Under the pieces are notes generated by a model. The model was not told where the DNA came from. It made no database searches and worked only from the letters and a program-made list of their open reading frames with translations. Below are positions 7,498 to 8,825 of a stretch of DNA of 14,017 nt, in pieces; within the stretch, counting starts at the first letter, position 1, and the number at the start of each line of letters is the position of its first letter. The DNA lies in the NCBI GenBank assembly GCA_946481615.1, contig CAMLOR010000072.1:1-14017 (forward strand), written 5' to 3'. The DNA comes from an uncultured Aquimonas sp. GTDB taxonomy: Bacteria > Pseudomonadota > Gammaproteobacteria > Xanthomonadales > Xanthomonadaceae. A program made the translations under genes and the position numbers.

Positions 7498-8825
7498 CGT
7501 TCGACCGCTCGACGATCCGCAGCTTCCGCTTCGTGCGCGCCGATTTCGATGCCGGCAGCGGCACGGCGCGGCTCGTGTATGCCTTCGACGATGGCCCCGA
7601 GCTGGTCGAGACGCTGGTAATTCCCGGTGCGCCGTTCGCGCCGCTGGATGCCGGCGGCGAGCATCTGCTGGGGCTGCTGCATCTGCTGGCGGGCGTGAGC
7701 TACTACAAGGCGGCGGTGCCGCCGGAGATACGTATCGAGTCGTACGGGATCGGTGCGGAGACGGCAGGGTTCCTGACCGAGGTGTATGAGAACGGACTGG
7801 GGGAGTTTGCTTATCGCAACGGGTTGTCGTTGCGGGACAAGATTGCTTTCCCCCATCCCGGCGTTCCCCCGCAAGCGGGGGAACGCCGGGATGGGGGCCG
7901 TCGCGCCCTCGTCGCCATCGGCGGCGGCAAGGACTCGCTCGTCAGCATCGAATCGCTGCGTGCCGCCGACATCGAACAGACCGTCGCCTGGATCGGCAAC
8001 TCGCAGCTGATCCGCGCCTGCGCCGAGCGCACCGGACTGCCGACGCTCAACGTGACGCGCCAGCTCGCGCCCGAACTGTTCGAGTACAACAAGCAGGGCG
8101 CGCTCAACGGCCACATCCCGGTGACGGCAGTGAACAGCGCGATCCTCGCGCTCGCCGCACATCTCACCGGCCACACCGACGTGGTGTTCTCGAACGAGCG
8201 CTCGGCGAGCTACGGCAGCCTGATTCCCGGCACCGGCGAAGTGAATCATCAGTGGTCGAAGGGCTGGGATTTCGAGCGCGCCTTCGCGCGGCAGGTGGCG
8301 CCCATGGTGCGCTACTACTCCCTGCTGCGGCCGTTCTCGGAACTCGCCGTTGCGCGGCAATTCGCCAGGCTCGACCGCTACGACGCGCATTTCAGCAGCT
8401 GCAACCGCAACTTCCATCTGCTCGGCGAACGCCCGGCGGCGCGCTGGTGCGGCGTATGCCCGAAATGCCATTTCGTGTTCCTGGCGCTGGCGCCGTTCAT
8501 GCCGAAGCCGCGTCTGGTCGGCATCTTCGGGCGCAATCTGCTCGACGATTCCGCACTCGCGCCGGGCTTCGATGCGCTGGTCGAATACCGGGATCACAAG
8601 CCGTTCGAATGCGTGGGCGAAGGGCGCGAATCGCGCGCTGCCTTCGCCGCGCTGGCGCAAAGCCCCGCCTGGCGCGAGGATGCGCTGGTGGCGCGTTTCG
8701 CGGGCGAAATCCTGCCGCAACTGGAGGCGGGCGAACTCGCGCTCGAACCCCTGCTGCAACCGGCGGCCGAACACGGCGTGCCGGCCGACCTCTGGGAGCG
8801 CGTGGGTGCGACTTTCCGATCTTGA
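7494..8825 (+). CDS. murL: UDP-N-acetyl-alpha-D-muramoyl-L-alanyl-L-glutamate epimerase
   Basis: This 443-residue cytoplasmic enzyme converts the terminal L-Glu of UDP-MurNAc-L-Ala-L-Glu to D-Glu, using ATP and releasing AMP and PPi (known for Xanthomonas MurL). Supporting sequence: the PP-loop-like ATP motif AIGGGKDSL (Gly143-Ser148), SNERSASYGSLIPGTGEVNHQWSK, and a cysteine-rich segment SSCNRNFHLLGE...WCGVCPKCHF (Cys303, Cys319, Cys322, Cys325) that could bind metal. It starts at the ATG overlapping the lysAC stop and ends 20 bases inside murD2; this pairing is the strongest evidence for the call. Oddity: residues 119-135 (PHPGVPPQAGERRDGG) are encoded by a perfect 48-bp palindrome, and codons just before it are unlike the rest of the gene. 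The insertion lies in a linker ahead of the PP-loop and keeps the frame, so the enzyme is probably functional. Confidence 0.94.
   Translation: MTFDRSTIRSFRFVRADFDAGSGTARLVYAFDDGPELVETLVIPGAPFAPLDAGGEHLLGLLHLLAGVSYYKAAVPPEIRIESYGIGAETAGFLTEVYENGLGEFAYRNGLSLRDKIAFPHPGVPPQAGERRDGGRRALVAIGGGKDSLVSIESLRAADIEQTVAWIGNSQLIRACAERTGLPTLNVTRQLAPELFEYNKQGALNGHIPVTAVNSAILALAAHLTGHTDVVFSNERSASYGSLIPGTGEVNHQWSKGWDFERAFARQVAPMVRYYSLLRPFSELAVARQFARLDRYDAHFSSCNRNFHLLGERPAARWCGVCPKCHFVFLALAPFMPKPRLVGIFGRNLLDDSALAPGFDALVEYRDHKPFECVGEGRESRAAFAALAQSPAWREDALVARFAGEILPQLEAGELALEPLLQPAAEHGVPADLWERVGATFRS
7850..7897 (+). repeat. Perfect 23-bp inverted repeat inside the murL reading frame
   Basis: The left arm 7850-7872 begins CCCCCATCCCGG and ends CCCCCGC; the right arm 7875-7897 is its exact reverse complement, with AA between them. 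The 48 bases equal 16 codons, so the frame is kept. In RNA this is a very stable GC-rich hairpin. It resembles a palindromic intergenic repeat that has come to lie in coding sequence; whether it is a family in this genome cannot be seen from one copy. Confidence 0.95.

Follow-up and report, generated by a model that had tools for sequence, protein, structure and literature searches.

A perfect palindrome read in frame within the linker of MurL, at a joint that appears to accept unrelated palindromic repeats

How does a perfect palindrome come to lie inside the reading frame of a cell-wall enzyme, and is it alone in that position? The question is raised by a stretch of 14,017 nucleotides from an uncultured Aquimonas sp. 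(hereafter the window). Its murL gene occupies positions 7494-8825 of the forward strand, downstream of a lysC-lysA fusion (4903-7497) and upstream of a frame with Mur ligase domains that ends at 10242 and is taken as murD2 from its place. The 443-residue translation matches the NCBIfam MurL family NF041275 with 747 bits (cut-off 700). An inverted-repeat search of the forward strand found a left arm of 23 nt at 7850-7872 and a right arm of 23 nt at 7875-7897, 100% complementary and separated by a centre of AA at 7873-7874. The earlier note, which had described this 48-bp palindrome as lying in frame inside murL just before a PP-loop motif, was exact in its coordinates and right about the placement. 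The motif, GGGKDS (7920-7937), corresponds to residues 143-148, is invariant in an alignment of 22 MurLs and agrees with matches to QueC/QatC-like folds. The codons of the invariant F119-P120 lie at 7848-7853 and the palindrome starts within them. It takes in the third position of codon 119 and the whole codon of Pro-120, while its last base falls in codon 135. It thereby encodes nearly all of a variable linker (codons 121-137, 7854-7904) delimited by alignment and an AlphaFold2 model.

Such a palindrome exceeds what chance would produce, with a score of 23 compared with a best of 14 and a mean of 11.75 when the whole window was dinucleotide-shuffled 60 times. No second copy of the 23-nt arm was found in the window, where the next best sites had 8 mismatches for one arm and 7 for the other, and no Rfam family was detected there. 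The window also contains a second palindrome, at 10251-10331 just downstream of the end of the murD2 frame, with 30-nt arms that are 97% complementary, a 21-nt loop and a score of 27; copies of the related TTCGACAGGCTCAC type are present at 1551-1677.

MurL belongs to a pathway that makes D-glutamate for the cell wall in bacteria reported to have no other gene for D-glutamate formation (PMC8788868), and PMC5808125 describes it as lacking known conserved domains. Among PDB sequences we found no relatives of MurL beyond two chance-level hits. The AlphaFold2 model of the window's MurL has a mean pLDDT of 81.8. Residues 108-137 are modelled without helix or strand, and mean pLDDT falls to 63 at residues 121-130; three other stretches (237-239, 254-256 and 304-316) are below 50 and thus less confident than the linker. 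For a relative with a longer linker (P0006), residues 132-166 are below 50 and the adjoining ten-residue blocks are at about 80, with four other stretches also below 50. In a Foldseek search with the window's model the best match was QatC (E 2.5e-4, TM 0.39-0.40), and QueC was among the next (target TM 0.60-0.66). The region encoded at 7920-8825 is thus modelled as a QueC/QatC-like PP-loop fold, which would fit substrate adenylation. Judging from the models and the position of the motif, the linker probably joins two domains of MurL.

The linker varies widely among relatives. In the best 120 of at least 7,990 matches (8,000 scored candidates), the stretch between 'FP' and 'ALVAIGGGKDS' shows strong variation in both length and sequence, and several of its peptides resemble palindromic repeats read through. 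In the alignment, which covers 22 of these MurLs, none of the columns that separate P120 from A138 is invariant. A MurL match was present in 293 of 297 sampled genomes of the family, and loci were taken from among the matches listed. Linker DNA came from 191 sources (190 loci plus the window), of which 179 could be parsed, yielding 152 distinct linkers; the 12 unparsed loci are L010, L114, L119, L120, L121, L124, L126, L130, L136, L139, L154 and L157. Loci L001-L080, which contributed 79 distinct linkers, were chosen by similarity to the window's MurL without regard to length; 15 came from L081-L110, 57 from L111-L190 and one from the window. Within the last group of loci, L111-L170 were picked for a weak or split match and L171-L190 mostly for a long one. 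Measured from GLGEFAYRN to ALV, the linker is exactly 40 residues long in 74 of the 152, the window included; the shortest is 39 residues and the longest 144. None of the 152 contains a stop codon. The linker seems to need a minimum length and no particular sequence. The earlier note had proposed that the palindrome adds 16 residues to the protein, but relatives do not lack 16 residues there; since the modal linker is equally long, the window's linker does not exceed the mode in length and consists mostly of the palindrome. In L161 a short tandemly repeated peptide accompanies the palindromic repeat in a linker of approximately 135 residues, and the murL match of L152 (G241:C8:3472-4860) has one in-frame TAA, located outside the linker.

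To compare linkers with the rest of the gene, inverted repeats were scored as +1 for each match and -2 for each mismatch, with arms at most 80 nt apart, and scores of at least 16 were called strong. Strong inverted repeats occur in 20 of the 152 distinct linkers, which is no population frequency because part of the loci were picked for weak, long or split matches, and in none of 1,532 same-size windows elsewhere in the same genes (Fisher p 4e-22, a value that ignores relatedness). The less selected loci L001-L080 give 6 of 79 linkers versus 0 of 845 windows (p 3e-7). At a score of at least 12 the counts are 23 in linkers and 3 elsewhere, and at 10 or more they are 33 and 35, so that the strong repeats alone carry information. 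Eleven of the 20 strong-repeat linkers have kept a canonical-type ending, judged by eye (L057, L064, L137, L138, L145, L149, L151, L161, L163, L164 and L165); the other 9 have not.

The strong repeats are of about seven types, assigned by eye from the printed arms. The GTAGGAGxG type is found in seven linkers (L011, L016, L113, L148, L150, L151 and L166) and the CCCTCTCC type in eight (L057, L137, L145, L149, L161, L163, L164 and L165). One linker each carries the ATTCCCGC type (L138), the GTAGAGCC type (L019), the GGGGACC type (L045) and the GTAGCCCGGGT type (L064), and the window's palindrome is the single representative of its own. Repeat calls made by permissive motif patterns in L009, L035, L037, L043, L074 and L181 are probably due to chance and were set aside. 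On a quick tree of 150 MurLs, calculated with the linker left out and containing long branches, the strong-repeat trait, defined by the strict inverted-repeat score and not by motif patterns, requires at least 15 changes, 10 of them forced by well-supported branches; these changes do not separate gain from loss. Close pairs illustrate the process. L041 has a linker of about 41 residues without a strong repeat, compared with 73 residues in L057, whose linker contains a palindromic dimer of CCCTCTCC, and the flanking DNA of the two is closely similar. Similarly, L005 has a canonical linker and L011 one rich in GTAGGAGxG sequence.

Four of these types, GTAGGAGxG, CCCTCTCC, ATTCCCGC and GTAGAGCC, are multi-copy in their host genomes, with the exception of G214, and reversed-pattern controls gave counts of 0 for all four. 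The GTAGGAGxG pattern occurs 24-217 times per genome on the forward strand of seven genomes that have it in murL; five comparators gave 125 (G006) and 28 (G012), both without the pattern in murL, and 1, 0 and 0. Forward matches to CCCTCTCC number 0-54 in 12 genomes whose linkers hold such repeats, strong or weaker, as against 8, 1, 3 and 1 in four comparators, and the sequence is nearly absent from the host G214 (0 forward, 1 reverse). The ATTCCCGC pattern has 38 forward matches in G049, 9 in G001 and 0 in five others, and GTAGAGCC has 41 in G004 and 0 in six others. These elements may be moved by a RAYT-type transposase. Of 19 element-bearing genomes, 18 have a match to the RAYT family (REP-associated tyrosine transposase, NF047646), and 15 of these exceed the curated cut-off. 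Among 6 genomes not selected for an element there are 4 with a match (3 above the cut-off), and among 14 control genomes there are 6 (1 above it). The occurrence of the family therefore fits mobility but is of little help in discriminating.

In the sequences searched, the core of the window's own element is rare. Its palindrome core was matched only with one mismatch, at a single site in each of 3 of 398 genomes of the order. Longer cores were found in none of 13 genomes with up to 3 mismatches and in none of 398 genomes of the phylum with up to 2, and the exact core was absent from viral contigs and from the 193 fetched loci. Plasmid matches with E of at most 1 came from 17 records: 5 from Azospirillum (84-89%), 1 from Hydrogenophaga (87%) and 11 from Streptomyces (20 bases). 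The nearest MurL relatives carry different linkers, most of them as long as the window's or longer, with no empty site among them, so that the comparison does not separate insertion from replacement for the window. The linkers of the four nearest (P0002, P0003, P0004 and P0005) are of other kinds; two resemble, in a judgement made on the peptides, repeats of the ATTCCCGC type read as protein. The window's palindrome may be a multi-copy element, and its arrival may have been recent.

We consider it very probable that the palindrome is a REP-like repeat that entered the linker codons of murL and now supplies nearly the whole linker, insertions being filtered by selection. Short palindromic repeats, multi-copy in these bacteria, would insert at many places, and intragenic copies would persist only where the frame is kept, no in-frame stop arises and the place is indifferent to sequence. 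The MurL linker has these properties, which would account for its repeated filling by unrelated element families, the old linker being sometimes lengthened and sometimes replaced. In the window, a REP-like palindrome of 48 bp would have entered murL where the codons encode the linker that precedes the PP-loop domain. We infer that insertion followed by purifying selection is the cause of the pattern. A further reading, which we put forward tentatively and regard as somewhat less probable than its opposite, is that the interdomain linker is a recruitment site, in which palindromic repeats replace the old linker and are renewed from different families as lineages diverge, leaving the joint almost entirely repeat DNA in the window and some of its relatives.

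Filtering by selection predicts that other proteins should also tolerate such repeats outside their domains. We classed 112 element copies in stretches of two genomes (76 in G135 and 36 in G004), which were picked for holding copies and whose densities are thus not representative; 26 copies lie inside 18 ORFs, as called crudely. Pfam searches of all 18 supported three proteins (L199, L204 and L231), in each of which the repeat falls outside the matched domains, and gave a domain far from the repeat in one more (L233); the remaining 14 have no Pfam family, and many of them resemble antisense shadow ORFs. In a 2-oxoacid dehydrogenase E2 the repeat lies between the lipoyl and E3-binding domains, and in a sigma-54 regulator it separates the AAA lid from the Fis-type helix-turn-helix. 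In a fusion of the methylmalonyl-CoA-mutase type the repeats begin at about residue 447, past the end of a MeaB-like domain at 399, and the best mutase stretch is 901-1108. The position of the repeats in these three proteins fits selection for tolerance, and MurL is not the sole acceptor.

It could be argued that element insertion favours the linker at the DNA level, and that insertion bias, and not only tolerance, lies behind the excess; a bolder form of the linker-replacement reading likewise adds such a preference for the MurL site. In 17 of the 20 strong-repeat linkers the start of the repeat falls in the span from the FP codons to about 6 residues beyond them, but the start of the variable region itself restricts the positions open to an insert. 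Of the 55 strong inverted repeats in the 1.58 Mb around 80 loci, 39 lie between genes and 6 in murL linkers; 5 others overlap the ends of genes, 2 sit at gene edges and 3 fall inside other called genes. The 6 in 79 less selected linkers thus stand against 3 in 1,103 genes of the same stretches, a background of crude gene calls. All three of the latter are doubtful, since L052 and L066 have no Pfam family and the repeat of L047 (residues 228-256) precedes the sole domain (303-526), which is of the dienelactone-hydrolase kind. The frequency of RAYT matches among element-bearing genomes would also suit a DNA-level target, but these matches extend to unselected and control genomes, seven element types share the one site, and the three Pfam-supported genes carry their repeats where tolerance predicts. 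We therefore regard a DNA-level target as improbable.

Still less likely is that the hairpin itself has been selected, with mRNA structure at a domain boundary slowing ribosomes and so aiding folding of the N-terminal domain or lowering MurL or MurD2 output, as the earlier note had in part suggested. The perfect pairing, with a predicted RNA hairpin energy of -53.5 kcal/mol, and the position directly before the PP-loop domain would suit such a role. However, in the 60 murL genes tested, drawn from 85 of canonical length, linker RNA is no more structured than shuffles (mean differences of -0.14 and -0.13 kcal/mol, with windows elsewhere in the same test ranging from -2.06 to +0.77 kcal/mol), 132 of the 152 linkers have no strong inverted repeat, and in 11 of the 20 that do the scored arms lie 33-79 nt apart. 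The lack of excess structure, together with the scarcity of strong repeats, favors tolerance over function, and the proposed action on translation is not borne out. Almost no weight can be given to the remaining possibility, that of ordinary coding sequence or an assembly artefact palindromic by accident, which the earlier note would have accepted had all orthologues carried a non-palindromic linker of similar length: the length is indeed the commonest among relatives and the window holds no further copy of the arm, but the score far exceeds that of the best shuffle, and 19 further distinct loci carry strong palindromes of other sequence at this position.

The preferred reading, a REP-like repeat accepted in linker codons, has precedents. 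Di Nocera, De Gregorio and Rocco (2013; PMC3733652) reported short palindromic REPs of the GTAG and CGTC super-families inside genes of several species, suggested that such insertions may be neutral where they fall in flexible linkers or loops, and noted that recB of X. campestris and X. oryzae carries different REPs at about one site. The terms 'MurL', 'epimerase' and 'peptidoglycan' are absent from the main text of that paper. In comparison with the intragenic REPs described there, the MurL linker carries about seven types and has undergone at least 10-15 changes on the tree, and the window's 23-bp stem exceeds both stem ranges of Table 1. There, GTAG REPs have a stem of 5-13 bp, a loop of 2-20 and a GTAG tag at one end, and CGTC REPs a stem of 8-9 bp, a loop of 4-5 bp and a CGTC tag at one end. 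We rejected the window's palindrome as a GTAG REP because its stem is too long and its flanks, GCTTT and CCGTCGCG, contain no GTAG, only the 2-nt centre fitting the loop range. As a CGTC REP it fails on stem and loop, though a CGTC is present at 7899-7902, one base past the right arm. This CGTC, which helps to encode G-R-R, is probably there by chance.

The earlier note's comparison with the Rickettsia palindromic elements (RPE; mentioned in PMC3733652 and PMC2759123) is supported, in that an in-frame palindromic element sits in a loop-like linker and resembles intragenic insertions of REPs or RPE. Like RPE, as they are described, these are palindromic repeats within protein-coding genes; unlike RPE, they belong to another lineage, and the window's element makes up the linker, whose length is the mode of its relatives. 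The RU repeats of enterobacteria (Delihas 2007; PMC2759123) are also small mobile repeats with open frames in gene loci. None was reported to lie within conserved domains of superfamily members, and their fusions to superfamily proteins are placed at C-terminal regions, whereas the case of MurL concerns an internal linker. Translated perfect inverted repeats inside genes have also been described from the mitochondria of Nematomorpha (Mikhailov 2019; PMC6649704), where both arms encode conserved regions of the protein; in contrast, the arms in the window encode a non-conserved linker. No paper joining MurL with palindromic repeats was found among the matches listed from the open-licence PMC literature.

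Intragenic palindromic repeats have thus been known as scattered cases, and here the linker of one enzyme holds unrelated types in many lineages. The presence of unrelated palindromic repeats at the same joint in many Lysobacteraceae makes it look like a place where repetitive DNA can insert again and again without harm. The linkers form a natural series that varies in length and sequence, in which some members have near sisters without the insert. Such a series could be used to gauge the amount of repeat DNA that an enzyme can tolerate, and to distinguish insertion that is aimed from insertion that is filtered by selection.
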